Shown: piece by piece, positions 7,412 through 49,587 of the stretch
Numbering within the stretch: the first letter of the stretch is position 1
Layout: every line of letters starts with the position of its first letter
Assembly (NCBI RefSeq): GCF_000702065.1
Contig: NZ_JNKN01000014.1
Location: forward strand, 1 to 49,587
Direction: 5' to 3'
Source of the DNA: Kandleria vitulina DSM 20405
GTDB lineage: Bacteria; Bacillota_I; Bacilli_A; Erysipelotrichales; Coprobacillaceae
DNA: 49,587 nucleotides
Notes under the pieces: generated by a model
The model's input: the letters and a program-made list of their open reading frames with translations, nothing else
What the model was told of the DNA's origin: nothing
The model's database searches: none
Position numbers and translations under genes: made by a program

Positions 7412-7929
7412 TTCAGAATGTTGGAAACATTCTTTTTTTATTCCCGCTTGCCTATAGCATGAGAATATTAAAAGATATGTCCGTGAAAAAAGTATTTATA
7501 ACTTGTCTTATTATTGATATAGGAATAGAATTCACACAAATGATGACAAATATTATCACAAGAATACCAAGTCATATGGTAGACATTGATGATATCATCT
7601 TAAACATGACAGGCGTTTTATTGGCATTATTAGTAGCTAAAGTAACCTATAAATTTAAAGATTATTTTTTAGATATACTATTTGTTTATCCAGATCAAAG
7701 AAATACAACTCATGGAAAAATTAGCAAAAGATCTCAGGAAATCCTAGCTATGCTTATTCTCTATTTTGGCTATATTCTTATTGCATGGGTTGTAAGTATA
7801 ATGGAATTTAAATATGAATATTTCTTGAATATTTTATTGTTCGTATTTACGATCGGTATCGTTGTTTATTTCATGATATATATGGTACTTCCATTCATTT
7901 CTTCAAAACTAAAGATCAAACACCAATAA
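7412..7929 (+). pseudogene. VanZ-like gene copy 3, 5'-truncated
   Basis: Similarity to the other VanZ copies begins abruptly in codon ~111 of the family; the first ~110 residues, the leader mini-ORF and the promoter are absent, and an in-frame TAG lies just upstream. The rest is open to the normal stop; an internal ATG at 7459 could give a 156-aa product, but no SD is visible. It is a mosaic: up to about 7707 it follows copy 1 (HMVDIDD, DQRNTTHGK), after that it is identical to copy 2. Probably non-functional. Confidence 0.85.
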
Positions 7930-44643: not shown

Positions 44644-44672
44644 TTGATTCTTAAGAGCAGTTCAAGTATACT
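44644..44672 (+). promoter_or_regulatory. promoter of carAB leader
   Basis: TTGATT (44644-44649), 17 bases, TATACT (44667-44672). Transcription would begin near 44679, right at the 5' arm of the leader hairpin. Confidence 0.65.
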
Positions 44673-44697
44673 ATGAAAAAAAGAAAGGGTGATGGCC

Positions 44698-44772
44698 ATG
44701 ACAACAACAATGATTACTTCATACACAATTGCACAGGCGTCCCTTTCTTTTGTTTTTAATATTTCATTTTAA
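44698..44772 (+). CDS. 24-aa leader peptide upstream of carA
   Basis: ATG 44698 (eight bases after SD AAAGGG; an in-frame ATG at 44692 is too close to the SD). The product begins MTTTMITSYTIAQAS and ends LSFVFNISF. The last eight or so codons are U-rich (Phe, Val, Asn, Ile). The stop codon abuts the terminator upstream of carA. No similarity to a known protein family recognised; most likely a regulatory leader. Confidence 0.55.
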   Translation: MTTTMITSYTIAQASLSFVFNISF

Positions 44773-44803
44773 GACATATCATTTATTGATGTGTCTTTTT
44801 TTG
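44771..44803 (+). terminator. attenuator terminator before carA
   Basis: AAGACATATC / GATGTGTCTT (one mismatch or wobble, loop ATTTATT) with T7. It ends two bases before the carA SD (AGGGGGG), so it must be read through for carAB to be expressed from the upstream promoter. Confidence 0.8.
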
Positions 44804-44817
44804 TAGGGGGGCATAAA

Positions 44818-45897
44818 ATGAAAGCTTATTTAATACTAGAAGATGGACATGTATTCGAAGGTGAAAGCTTTGGTGCAGTCAAGGAAGTCATCAGTGAATT
44901 TGTGTTCAACACATCTATGACAGGATATGTCGAAGTATTGACAGATCCATCTTATGCTGGTCAGAGTGTCGTTATGACTTATCCATTAATTGGAAACTAC
45001 GGTGTACCACTTGATGATCAGGAATCAGCACATCCATTCGTGGAAGGATTTGTGGTGAATGAACTTTCACGTTTAGGTTCAAACTTTAGAATGAATATGA
45101 GTCTTAATGACTACATGATAGAAAATAACATTCCAGGTATCCAAGGAGTAGATACACGTGCAATCACAAAGATCATTAGAAATAAAGGATGCATGAACGG
45201 AATGATCACAACTAAAAAATATGATATCGATGAAGTTATCGAAAAGCTTAAGGCATACAAGGTAACAGGTGTTGTATCAAGATGTAGCTGTGATGAACCA
45301 TACAGAGTAGGAGAAGTTGGCGGATACAAAGTGGCATTATATGACTTTGGTGCTAAGCGCAATATCGCACGTGAACTTGCAAATCGTGGATGTGATGTAA
45401 CAGTTGTACCAGCATCAACACCTGCAAGTGCTATCCTTGATGGAAAATATGATGGTATCCTATTATCAAATGGGCCAGGGGATCCAAGTGAATGTACAGA
45501 AATCATTGAAGAAATCAAGAAGCTTATCGATTCAAAAATGCCAATCTTTGCGATCTGTCTAGGGCATCAGTTAATGGCATTGGCACATGGCTTTACTACT
45601 GAAAAGATGGTTTATGGTCATCATGGGGCTAACCATCCAGTAAAAGACCTTCATACAAATCGTGTGTATATTTCAACACAGAACCACAACTATGTGATCA
45701 AGGAAGATTCAATTGATGCTTCTAAAGCAAAAGTATGGTTCAAGAATGTCAACGATGACACAATTGAAGGATTAGAATACTTAAATGAAAATATTAAGAC
45801 TGTACAGTTCCATCCAGAAGCTTGTGCAGGACCAGTGGACACAAACTACTTATTTGATACATTTATTGAAATGATGGGAGGATCTAAAAATGCCTAA
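44818..45897 (+). CDS. carA: carbamoyl-phosphate synthase small (glutaminase) subunit
   Basis: 359 aa from ATG 44818, placed after SD AGGGGGG; an in-frame GTG at 44791 lies inside the terminator and is rejected. Releases ammonia from glutamine for CarB. N-terminal CPSase domain (LILEDGHVFEGESFG, FNTSMTGYVEVLTDPSY), then class I glutaminase with Cys247 (AICLGHQ), and the His/Glu pair in FHPEACAGP. It overlaps carB by eight bases (translational coupling). Confidence 0.96.
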   Translation: MKAYLILEDGHVFEGESFGAVKEVISEFVFNTSMTGYVEVLTDPSYAGQSVVMTYPLIGNYGVPLDDQESAHPFVEGFVVNELSRLGSNFRMNMSLNDYMIENNIPGIQGVDTRAITKIIRNKGCMNGMITTKKYDIDEVIEKLKAYKVTGVVSRCSCDEPYRVGEVGGYKVALYDFGAKRNIARELANRGCDVTVVPASTPASAILDGKYDGILLSNGPGDPSECTEIIEEIKKLIDSKMPIFAICLGHQLMALAHGFTTEKMVYGHHGANHPVKDLHTNRVYISTQNHNYVIKEDSIDASKAKVWFKNVNDDTIEGLEYLNENIKTVQFHPEACAGPVDTNYLFDTFIEMMGGSKNA

Positions 45898-48800
45898 AAG
45901 AAATGATATAAAGAAAGTATTAGTTATCGGTTCAGGACCAATCATTATCGGACAGGCTGCCGAATTCGACTATGCAGGTACACAGGCGTGTCGTGCATTA
46001 AGAGAAGAAGGAGTGGAAGTTGTACTGATCAACTCCAATCCTGCCACAATCATGACTGATGGAGATATGGCTGATCATGTCTACATCGAACCATTAACTG
46101 TACCAGTAGTAAAACAGTTAATCCTAAAAGAAAAGCCAGACTGCATTCTTCCTACACTTGGAGGACAGAATGCCTTAAATATCGCAATGGCATTAGCAGA
46201 TGAAGGGTTCCTTGAAGAACATAATGTAGAAACAATCGGTACTGATACAGATACTATCAAGATGGCTGAAGATCGTCTTGAATTCAAGAATTTGATGGAA
46301 CGTATTCATGAGCCAATCGCACCTTCAACAGTTGTCAACTATGTGGATGACGCTATCGCATTTGCCAATAAAATCGGTTACCCAGTTGTTGTTAGACCAG
46401 CCTACACATTAGGTGGAACTGGGGGCGGAATCGCTCATAATGAAAAAGAACTTCACGATATCTGTTCAAATGGTTTAAGACTTTCACGAGTAACAGAATG
46501 TCTTATCGAAAAATCAATTGCCGGATGGAAAGAAGTAGAATACGAAGTTATGCGTGATGGTGCAGGAAACTGCATCACTGTATGTAACATGGAAAACCTT
46601 GATCCAGTTGGTGTACATACCGGAGATAGTATCGTCGTTGCGCCATCTCAGACTTTATCAGATAAAGACTACCAAATGTTAAGAACATCTGCCTTAAATA
46701 TCATTACAGCACTTAACATCAATGGTGGATGTAATGTACAGTTCGCCTTAAATCCAGATTCATTTGAATACTGTGTTATCGAAGTAAATCCTCGTGTATC
46801 ACGTTCAAGTGCCTTAGCTTCAAAAGCAACAGGATACCCAATCGCTAAATTAGCAGCTAAGATTGCCTTGGGATATACACTAGATGAAATCGTCAATGCG
46901 GTAACAGGAAAAACATACGCTTCTTACGAACCAACATTGGACTACATTGTATGTAAGATTCCAAAGTGGCCATTTGATAAATTCTATGATGCATCAAGAA
47001 ATCTTGGTACACAGATGAAAGCCACTGGGGAAGTTATGGCCATCTGCAATAACTTCGAAGGTTCACTTATGAAAGCATTGCGTTCGCTTGAACAGAATGT
47101 CTACTACTTATATCATGAAGAACTAGCCGAGTTAACTATTGAAGAGTTAAGAGCTGAACTTAAGAAAGTAGATGACAAACGTCTATTCGTTATCGCAGAA
47201 GCATTAAGAAAAGGCGTATCAATGCAGGAAATTCATTCAATCACAAAGATTGATATGTGGTTTATCGATAAGATCAAACACCTTATTGAAGTAGAAAACA
47301 AATTAAAAGAAGAAGAATTAACACCTGAATTATTAAAACAGGCAAAACGTCTAGAATTCCCGGATTTAGTTATCGCTGAATTAACAGGAAAAACAACAGA
47401 AGAAATCTACTACTTACGTAAAGGAAACAATATTACAGCAGCCTTCAAGACAGTAGATACATGTGCAGCCGAATTTGATGCTAAAACTCCATACTTCTAT
47501 AGTGTATATGGAGGAGAACATGAAATTCAGCCAACACATAATAAAAAGAAAATCATCGTCTTTGGTTCAGGTCCAATCCGTATTGGACAGGGTATCGAAT
47601 TTGATTACTGTTCAGTACATTGTGTATGGGCATTAAAGAAAGCTGGATATGAAACAATTATTGTAAACAATAACCCAGAAACAGTTTCAACTGACTTCGA
47701 TATCGCTGATAGATTATACTTTGAACCATTAACAGCTGAAGATGTTCAGTCAATCATTGAACTAGAAAAACCAGAAGGTGCCATTGTACAGTTTGGTGGA
47801 CAGACTGCCATCAAGCTTTCACAGGATCTATTATCAATGGGTGTTCCAATCTTAGGTACATCTGCTAATTCAGTTGATGCCGCAGAAGATAGAGAACGTT
47901 TTGATGAAATCCTTGAAAAATGTCATATCGATCGTCCAAAAGGAAGAACAGTCTTTACTGTAGAAGAAGCATTATCAGTCGCTAATGAATTAGGATATCC
48001 AGTCCTTGTAAGACCATCGTACGTACTAGGTGGATCAGGTATGGAAATTGCCTTAAATGATGCGGATGTAAAACGTTTCATCACACATATCACAGAAGAA
48101 TTTGATATCAAGGATCATCCAATCCTTATCGATAAATACTTAGCTGGAAAAGAATGTGAAGTAGATGCCATCTGCGATGATAACGGAATCCTTATTCCAG
48201 GTATCATGGAACACGTAGAAAGAGCAGGGGTTCACTCTGGAGACTCAATTTCAGTTTACCCACCTCAAAAAATCAGTGAAGCGATGAAAGAAAGAATCGT
48301 AGATTACTCAACACGTTTAGCTAAAGCATTAAAGGTTAAGGGATTAATGAACATCCAGTTCATTGTCTATGAAGATGAAGTCTACGTTATTGAAGTTAAC
48401 CCAAGATCATCACGTACAATTCCATATATCTCAAAAGTAACAGGTATTCCACTAGTAGATGTGGCAACACAGGTTATCATTGGACATACAATCAAGGAAT
48501 TAGGATATGATTATGGATTAGCTCCAGAAAAGAAGACAATCGCTGTAAAGATGCCAGTCTTCTCATTTGAAAAAATCACAGGTGCTGAAATCTCTCTTGG
48601 CCCTGAAATGAAATCTACAGGAGAAGTATTAGGTGTATCTGAAGACTTGGATGAAGCTATGTACAAAGCCTTCATTGGTACAGGTCTTGATCTTCCTAAG
48701 AAAAAGAATATCATCTGTACAATCAAAGATTCTTCAAAAGAAGAATTCTTGCCAATCGCAAAACAGTACTACATGTTCGGTTATGACTTATATGCGACAG

Positions 48801-49090
48801 AGGGAACATATAACTTCTTAAAAGAACATGATGTACCATGTCATAAGGTTAATCGCATTAATGATAAGAACAATACAATCTTCGACTTGATGCTTACTGA
48901 TACAGTGGACCTTGTCATTGATATCCCAACAAGAAATGACAACTTAAAAGATGGTTTCCGCATCCGTAGATTTGCGGTAGAAGCAGGTATTCCAATCTAT
49001 ACTTCATTAGATACTGCTCAAGCGTTAATCAATTCATTAGAAAGTAAACACAAAGGTGACGTTTCACTTGTAGATATCACTACTTTATAA
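45890..49090 (+). CDS. carB: carbamoyl-phosphate synthase large subunit
   Basis: 1066 aa, standard length. Two homologous synthetase halves, each with an ATP-grasp domain: first half from VLVIGSGPIIIGQAAEFDYAG-like P-loop region (split), with VVVRPAYTLGGTGGGIA; second half from IIVFGSGPIRIGQGIEFDY with VLVRPSYVLGGSGMEIA. Oligomerisation domain between, and the C-terminal MGS-type allosteric domain (~935-1066, LFATEGTYNFL-like DLYATEGTYNFLKEH). Makes carbamoyl phosphate for pyrimidines and arginine. Neither pyr nor arg genes adjoin it here. Confidence 0.97.
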   Translation: MPKRNDIKKVLVIGSGPIIIGQAAEFDYAGTQACRALREEGVEVVLINSNPATIMTDGDMADHVYIEPLTVPVVKQLILKEKPDCILPTLGGQNALNIAMALADEGFLEEHNVETIGTDTDTIKMAEDRLEFKNLMERIHEPIAPSTVVNYVDDAIAFANKIGYPVVVRPAYTLGGTGGGIAHNEKELHDICSNGLRLSRVTECLIEKSIAGWKEVEYEVMRDGAGNCITVCNMENLDPVGVHTGDSIVVAPSQTLSDKDYQMLRTSALNIITALNINGGCNVQFALNPDSFEYCVIEVNPRVSRSSALASKATGYPIAKLAAKIALGYTLDEIVNAVTGKTYASYEPTLDYIVCKIPKWPFDKFYDASRNLGTQMKATGEVMAICNNFEGSLMKALRSLEQNVYYLYHEELAELTIEELRAELKKVDDKRLFVIAEALRKGVSMQEIHSITKIDMWFIDKIKHLIEVENKLKEEELTPELLKQAKRLEFPDLVIAELTGKTTEEIYYLRKGNNITAAFKTVDTCAAEFDAKTPYFYSVYGGEHEIQPTHNKKKIIVFGSGPIRIGQGIEFDYCSVHCVWALKKAGYETIIVNNNPETVSTDFDIADRLYFEPLTAEDVQSIIELEKPEGAIVQFGGQTAIKLSQDLLSMGVPILGTSANSVDAAEDRERFDEILEKCHIDRPKGRTVFTVEEALSVANELGYPVLVRPSYVLGGSGMEIALNDADVKRFITHITEEFDIKDHPILIDKYLAGKECEVDAICDDNGILIPGIMEHVERAGVHSGDSISVYPPQKISEAMKERIVDYSTRLAKALKVKGLMNIQFIVYEDEVYVIEVNPRSSRTIPYISKVTGIPLVDVATQVIIGHTIKELGYDYGLAPEKKTIAVKMPVFSFEKITGAEISLGPEMKSTGEVLGVSEDLDEAMYKAFIGTGLDLPKKKNIICTIKDSSKEEFLPIAKQYYMFGYDLYATEGTYNFLKEHDVPCHKVNRINDKNNTIFDLMLTDTVDLVIDIPTRNDNLKDGFRIRRFAVEAGIPIYTSLDTAQALINSLESKHKGDVSLVDITTL

Positions 49091-49184: not shown

Positions 49185-49587
49185 AAAAGACTGTGCGAAA
49201 AGCCCACTCCTTTAGGTGTGGGATGGATAGAATAAAATAAAAAAAGTGTATGTAGATAACGGAAGCGTACATATATTATGATATAGTATATGTATGGAAA
49301 ATAAATATAGACATACGAACACAACGGTATCTTTGATAAACTACCATTTTGTCTTTTGCCCAAGATACAGGCGTAAAATTTTTCTGATATCAAATGTAGA
49401 AAGACGCTTTAAAGAACTGGTCAAAATAAAATGTAAGGAGTTAGAAATTGAAATTATTGCAATCGAATGTGATAAGGACTATTCTTATATGTTCTTGAAT
49501 TGTCCTCCAACATTAAGTCCTTCAGGCATTATGCGACAAATAAAAGGATATACAAGTAAAATTCTTAGAGAAGAGTTTGTGGAACTA
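49185..49587 (+). mobile_element. IS200/IS605 element, left end (runs off window)
   Basis: Left end after TTCAC: hairpin at 49203-49222 (CCCACTCC / GGTGTGGG, loop TTTA, one T-T mismatch), then an AT-rich stretch and tnpA. The hairpin resembles, but is not identical to, those at 229-249 and 30248-30266, so different relatives of this group are present. Confidence 0.8.
49294..49587 (+). CDS. tnpA: IS200/IS605 TnpA-like Y1 transposase, 5' part
   Basis: First 98 codons, open to the window end. NYHFVFCPRYRRKIF (~16-30) and IMRQIKGYTSKILREEF (~78-94) are characteristic of the IS605-type TnpA fold. Where the family has the metal-binding HUH motif (usual D-H-V-H-L), this protein has DKDYSYMFL: both His are Tyr. 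The catalytic Tyr would lie beyond the window. No clear SD precedes the ATG, as is common for tnpA. May be inactive, or a variant subgroup. Confidence 0.8.
   Translation, partial: MENKYRHTNTTVSLINYHFVFCPRYRRKIFLISNVERRFKELVKIKCKELEIEIIAIECDKDYSYMFLNCPPTLSPSGIMRQIKGYTSKILREEFVEL

Follow-up and report, generated by a model that had tools for sequence, protein, structure and literature searches.

The window, which denotes the whole stretch of 49,587 nucleotides analysed here (Kandleria vitulina DSM 20405, contig NZ_JNKN01000014.1), contains the genes for both subunits of carbamoyl-phosphate synthase. Profile searches confirmed the identity of carA, carB, purF, gltB, gltD and of an ammonium transporter with a PII domain, and carAB follows the genes for glutamate synthase, the ammonium transporter/PII and PurF. 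The region next to carAB shows the order purF, promoter-like site, leader, carAB, with the following features:

44644–44672, + strand: candidate sigma-70-like promoter (TTGATT 44644–44649, 17 nt, TATACT 44667–44672), from the sequence, with boxes in relatives recognized by eye
44679–44689, + strand: 5' arm of helix P1, overlapping the Shine-Dalgarno (SD) region of the mini-ORF, from the MFE fold and pairing tests of own against swapped arms
44698–44772, + strand: leader mini-ORF of 24 codons (ATG 44698–44700, stop TAA 44770–44772), its frame open in relatives
44740–44769, + strand: U-rich 3' part of the mini-ORF, 67% T, a proposed UTP-sensitive region in which RNA polymerase (RNAP) would pause, from base composition
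44741–44751, + strand: 3' arm of helix P1, the anti-SD strand, from the MFE fold and the same arm-pairing tests
44771–44803, + strand: intrinsic terminator (stem-loop 44771–44797 and T-run), from the fold and from stem pairs changed on both sides in relatives
44818–45897, + strand: carA, carbamoyl-phosphate synthase small subunit (NF009475 and TIGR01368 over cut-off)
45890–49090, + strand: carB, carbamoyl-phosphate synthase large subunit (NF003671 and TIGR01369 over cut-off)

An earlier sequence-only reading of this DNA had described an SD, a mini-ORF of 24 codons with a U-rich 3' half, a stop codon touching a terminator and carA right behind, an anatomy that we find confirmed in the sequence and retained in relatives. 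The helix proposed to sequester the SD, noted there as 10 bp, extends to 11 bp in the MFE fold (44679–44689 paired with 44741–44751), and an alternative in-frame ATG at 44692 would lengthen the mini-ORF to 26 codons. The terminator consists of an 11 bp stem with a loop of 5, which begins at the stop codon of the mini-ORF and is followed by the T-run, and the ATG of carA at 44818 is located 20 nt past the stem. Taken as a whole, the leader (44679–44803) folds 5.3 standard deviations below dinucleotide shuffles, none of 200 being as stable, and for its P1 helix the margin over shuffles is only moderate, 9 of 200 being as good. The T content of 0.67 in the 30 nt from 44740 to 44769 is reached by none of the 1,381 coding tiles of the same length in the window. 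The claimed promoter boxes are likewise present, with 9 of 12 matches. Since promoter-like matches in a stretch of 2 kb are not commoner than in shuffled sequence (4 compared to 7.9), the assignment is founded on relatives, where similar –35 and –10 boxes were found by eye at the equivalent position.

A search for carA in 148 genomes produced a match in 110 of them, with 43 of the genomes belonging to the family of the window. The closest CarA proteins among named records are from Sharpea, Massilimicrobiota, Thomasclavelia, Faecalibacillus, Longibaculum and Candidatus Stoquefichus. Sharpea is classified within the Coprobacillaceae, Erysipelotrichales, and the nearest named relatives thus place the DNA in the Bacillota, as expected from its earlier attribution to a Firmicute. 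Of 40 family regions read upstream of carA, 36 contain the leader (L001–L036), one (L038) has a diverged version with an ORF that extends into carA, and in three (L037, L039 and L040) it is absent; the leader of genome G039 was found by a covariance model alone. Among the 36 leaders, the stop codon precedes the first base of the terminator stem by 1–9 nt in 27 cases and is located inside or after the stem in 8. In L020 (genome G034), the mini-ORF has no stop before carA and continues in frame into the gene, so that a fused start with carA would be possible. The distance between the terminator stem and the start of carA amounts to 20–30 nt across all 36 leaders, which leaves no room for another promoter.

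Comparison of these leaders indicates that it is the reading frame, the U-tract and the RNA helices, rather than the encoded peptide, which have been preserved. For the frame we used 22 representatives with less than 80% identity to each other, in all of which the mini-ORF is open up to the terminator, compared to 4.8 expected from shuffles, whereas the other two frames are open in 3 representatives each. As the starts for this count were picked with the position of the stop known, the test was also carried out blind to the stop, leaving 35 of 36 leaders open, with L034 lacking an SD by that rule. The fraction of T over consecutive thirds of the ORF is 0.29, 0.33 and 0.64, and the composition of the last third, with T at 0.65, C at 0.10 and A at 0.20, is as expected if the addition of U were the slow step. 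In the 30 nt before the terminator, the mean T content is 0.60 for the 22 carA leaders and 0.63 for 14 leaders of a second gene, carB2, described below, compared to 0.29 at 32 gene ends of the window. A U-rich motif, [CT]T[CT]ATTTT, is found in 16 representatives, where it is read in frame 2 in nine, in frame 1 in six and in frame 0 in one, indicating that conservation acts on the RNA and not on the peptide.

This distribution has consequences for the possibility that the leader senses an amino acid or its own nascent peptide, with a ribosome stalling either at particular codons, as in amino-acid attenuation of the trp and his type, or on an arrest peptide of the TnaC or SpeFL type. Such sensors would be in line with an open leader ORF whose 3' half contains codons for Phe, Ser and Leu and whose stop is at the base of a terminator. 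With the motif read in three frames, however, the peptide differs between representatives. Similarly, no run of arginine codons was detected in the same set, where arginine accounts for 3 of 519 codons, and an antiterminator, which would be manifested in co-variation between the 5' arm of the terminator and the body of the leader, was not found, 5,163 of 20,000 permutations being as good. A match over cut-off to argG is present in 36 of the 43 family genomes, and the two genomes G004 and G008, which have none, both retain the leader before carA, an observation against arginine as the only signal. Arginine-codon attenuation and an arrest peptide were thus rejected, and we regard this class of explanation as highly improbable.

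Unlike the peptide, helix P1 is conserved. To quantify its conservation, we employed an alignment-free test, in which the SD region of each leader is paired either with the 3' part of the ORF it belongs to or with those swapped from other leaders in 20,000 permutations. The test replaced a conventional treatment, since the 3' arm of P1 is out of register in the MAFFT alignment A1 and RNAalifold consequently recovered the terminator alone. For carA, the summed energy of the own pairs is –329.5 compared to a permuted mean of –274.5 (sd 11.4), and for carB2 –213.7 compared to –174.9 (sd 9.7), with none of the 20,000 permutations being as good in either set, whereas in a control using the first 40 nt of the ORF 2,191 of 20,000 were. 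As judged from these pairings, the SD helix is co-varying, separately for carA and carB2. Shuffle tests of P1 in single leaders are often weak (as good in 145 shuffles for L008 and 124 for L034), because a purine-rich SD pairs with any pyrimidine tract. The terminator is also conserved by structure, with both sides changed in 5 of 10 consensus stem pairs. The comparative check proposed by the sequence-only reading, an inspection of relatives for the mini-ORF, U-tract and terminator, thus reveals all three to be conserved, with compensatory changes in the terminator and additionally in the SD helix. In line with a function of P1 in closing the SD, the computed accessibility of the latter is 0.65 before and 0.18 after the U-rich strand is included, the drop exceeding 0.2 in 29 of 36 representatives. 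Closure in the window is modest, from 0.51 to 0.36.

The contact between stop codon and terminator by itself proves nothing, since such terminators are ordinary in this genome: 15 of 32 ORF ends in the window carry a terminator, and 12 of these 15 are located within 7 nt of the stop codon. The mini-ORF could therefore be no more than a small gene followed by a terminator of the usual kind, with carA being expressed by constant read-through. This non-regulatory view is difficult to reconcile with a peptide that is not conserved, its U-rich motif being read in three frames, while the helix closing the SD co-varies, and with the recurrence of the device before carB2. It also conflicts with the results of a mechanical detector of ORF and terminator, which was applied to L001–L038 and identified 34 of these 38 carA regions (missing L020, L034, L037 and L038) compared to none of 59 control genes, 29 upstream of pyrB and 30 upstream of NCS2 transporters, for which gene starts were approximate and the pyrB locus L070 was left out. 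Given the conservation in relatives and the performance of the detector, the leader is not a chance arrangement, and we consider the non-regulatory explanation improbable. In the same window, three similar membrane-protein ORFs (685–1515, 1674–2507 and 7459–7929), which we take to be VanZ-like, were observed with near-identical terminators after two of them, and at about 49290–49587, after carB, we noticed by eye a fragment resembling an IS200-type transposase that is cut by the end of the window.

A covariance model constructed from the 22 leaders and searched in the 43 family genomes revealed a second location. Of 40 matches examined, with weaker ones taken in part, 31 precede carB2 in as many genomes, including that of the window (L217, E 0.2), whereas L210–L216, L218 and L219 do not, although L214 resembles a leader by eye. 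The carB2 gene itself is a stand-alone second carB (1072 aa; L220:6744–9962 in G000, and L180–L209) present in 31 family genomes, in which no second full-length carA match was found; its protein was profile-confirmed in L220, and its own frame appears disturbed in L184 and short in L194. The mini-ORFs before carB2 are open to the terminator in 31 of 31 leaders once the start is chosen, the automatic choice having failed in 6 of 31, mostly by taking an ATG inside GGAATGAG, and been revised with knowledge of the stop. A borderline match (E 0.04) was also obtained in G017 before an operon encoding a HAD hydrolase, an unknown ORF, pyrB and pyrI, and by eye a corresponding stretch is seen before the same operon in G026. 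At the equivalent site in G000, G014, G015 and G019 no leader was found by eye. Together with the detector results for the 29 pyrB and 30 NCS2 genes, none of which showed such a leader, this distribution suggests that it marks carbamoyl-phosphate synthase rather than pyrimidine genes in general.

The pyr operons of Bacillota are known for attenuation by the protein PyrR, which shares with the present case the phylum and the control of pyrimidine genes by transcription attenuation. In the leader studied here, a mini-ORF replaces the protein-binding loop, and PyrR was found over cut-off in a single one of the 43 family genomes (G008) and not in G000, with the other 42 showing weaker phosphoribosyltransferase-like matches alone. 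For comparison, it is over cut-off in 73 of about 105 genomes of the sister family, a count that appears to draw on the 148 genomes of the carA search. The PyrR-binding element RF00515 is over cut-off in none of the 43, its sole match, at 42.6 bits and below the gathering score, being located at pyrB of G008, a genome that retains the carA leader L017. The sequence-only reading had named relatives without the mini-ORF but with a PyrR-loop terminator as one observation that would speak against it; what we find is a family nearly devoid of PyrR with the one RF00515 match at pyrB and not at carA. A riboswitch or a protein-binding attenuator of the PyrR kind, for which two stable hairpins could be taken as an indication, is further contradicted by searches of Rfam, which returned no family in the window at gathering scores, RF00515 included, and nothing relevant for ten loci searched at E up to 1, and by the loop of P1, which is formed by the unconserved 5' half of the mini-ORF. 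We therefore rejected an Rfam riboswitch and the PyrR element, and find this alternative scarcely tenable.

In the absence of an antiterminator, a conserved loop, a run of codons and a conserved peptide, a ribosome residing near the stop codon is the remaining conserved way to block the terminator. We thus propose, with a probability of roughly 0.6, that the leader is a ribosome-dependent transcription attenuator, which would compare the speed of RNAP with the arrival of the first ribosome and use UTP as signal. When UTP is scarce, RNAP would be slowed within the U-rich part of the mini-ORF, providing time for a ribosome to load on the open SD before the anti-SD strand is made. The loaded ribosome would then move along behind RNAP until it reaches the stop codon, where it would cover the 5' arm of the adjoining terminator, allowing read-through into carAB. 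When UTP is plentiful, RNAP would move ahead, the U-rich strand would emerge and P1 would close the SD, leaving no ribosome in time, so that the terminator would fold and carAB would be off. A late ribosome would be locked out by the P1 gate. Comparison of sequences supports the anatomy of this device, its uninterrupted frame, an SD helix that co-varies, the scarcity of PyrR in the family and the reappearance of the leader before carB2. What we infer is that UTP is the signal, that RNAP pauses, that a ribosome masks the terminator and that events follow this order, with the U-tract as obvious candidate for holding RNAP back and UTP as obvious signal for carbamoyl-phosphate synthase. As material for experiments, 36 distinct natural variants, less than 80% identical, of one proposed race between RNAP and ribosome are available.

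A translation-coupled attenuator could also respond to a different signal, be it pausing set by NusG, the general capacity for translation or the status of nitrogen and glutamine. The location of carAB next to glutamine and ammonium genes makes a signal other than pyrimidine possible, and the lack of the leader at family pyrB and NCS2 genes would fit the same view. NusG-dependent pausing at TTNTTT has been described for vmlR of B. subtilis (PMC9226507), but in the leaders this motif is not enriched beyond base composition (1.53 compared to 1.66 in shuffles), and NusG-site enrichment was accordingly discarded. With the bias towards T in the last third of the ORF and the near-absence of PyrR from the family also standing against it, we judge a signal other than UTP to be unlikely.

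The proposed UTP-dependent attenuator resembles the pyrBI operon of E. coli, where RNAP pauses in a UTP-sensitive manner. The likeness extends to a leader ORF (pyrL) with U-rich 3' part, an intrinsic terminator and downstream genes of the pyrimidine pathway (PMC5021804 and PMC4824070). In pyrBI, translation close behind RNAP prevents the terminator and tight coupling is needed across the leader (PMC5021804), and a terminator located several bp past a gene was found in E. coli to be almost fully repressed by translation (PMC4824070). In contrast to pyrBI, whose terminator lies within a leader gene of 135 bp (PMC4824070), the device described here is found in Bacillota, has its stop mostly at the base of the terminator, contains a co-varying helix that closes the SD of its own mini-ORF, and precedes carAB and carB2. 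By its anatomy, the leader is a candidate member of this type and looks as if it works in a similar way. Of the assignment made by the sequence-only reading, the pyrBI-type build is thus well supported, whereas its suggestion of a peptide-sensing variant found no support given a U-rich motif in three frames, and a pyrBI-like logic with an added lock on the SD appears most likely from the sequences compared.

Leader-ORF attenuators described in Bacillota are few, among them antibiotic-induced ones (PMC9226507) and a histidine leader. Of these, vmlR and bmrCD of B. subtilis (PMC9226507) and the hisS/hisZ leader of bacilli share with our case a leader ORF whose translation decides on termination, but the former sense antibiotic-stalled ribosomes and the latter histidine codons, whereas the family leader has no codon run and no conserved peptide. 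Upstream of carA, a leader peptide is reportedly made from the promoter region of Pseudomonas aeruginosa, a member of a different phylum (PMC4997734), and the carA motif RNA (SRC-12-1) of Polynucleobacter occupies a similar position, but is an extended imperfect hairpin just before the RBS of a betaproteobacterial carA and a riboswitch candidate (PMC8632094). A search of open-licence papers provided no description of the present carA leader.

Control by a coupled ribosome is unexpected where RNAP outruns ribosomes, as described for B. subtilis, with terminators near stop codons as signature of runaway transcription (PMC9226507 and PMC7858274). Under such conditions termination would be the default, and masking by a ribosome would need real pausing of RNAP. 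A conserved and probably UTP-reading leader would show that a local delay of RNAP suffices to bring about coupling at that site, and would offer an explanation for how gut bacteria of a family mostly without PyrR control their pyrimidine genes. More tentatively, and at rather less than even odds, the leader might be a kinetic gauge of RNAP speed for bacteria whose RNAP normally outruns ribosomes, standing in for PyrR in the control of carbamoyl phosphate in two separate transcription units. Since the strand that requires UTP for its synthesis is the anti-SD strand itself, the ribosome would then have a single chance to load before it appears, and a delay of RNAP would be converted into a nearly all-or-none choice between loading and locking.

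Outside the family, the covariance model with strict filters was searched in 395 genomes of the class, where it matched 16 family genomes and two others (G458 and G356), which by eye were spurious. Reading of 22 of the 48 non-family loci L118–L165 by eye revealed no such leader. At nine family loci upstream of pyrB (L071–L073, L075–L079 and L082), we observed a short leader directly after the promoter, without mini-ORF and by eye apparently with two mutually exclusive hairpins and a T-run, at a place equivalent to that of the RF00515 match in G008; these are possibly attenuators independent of PyrR. In the sister family, 50 carA regions were read by eye and most are inside operons. Three of them have a leader ORF that stops at a terminator, and the genomes concerned (G070, G095 and G101) are without a PyrR match. 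Leader ORFs of this kind before carA are seen at L260, L044, L047 and L275, the last located on a truncated contig, in sister-family genomes that are not on the PyrR list. No sequence likeness to the family leader was noted, and they are perhaps convergent devices.
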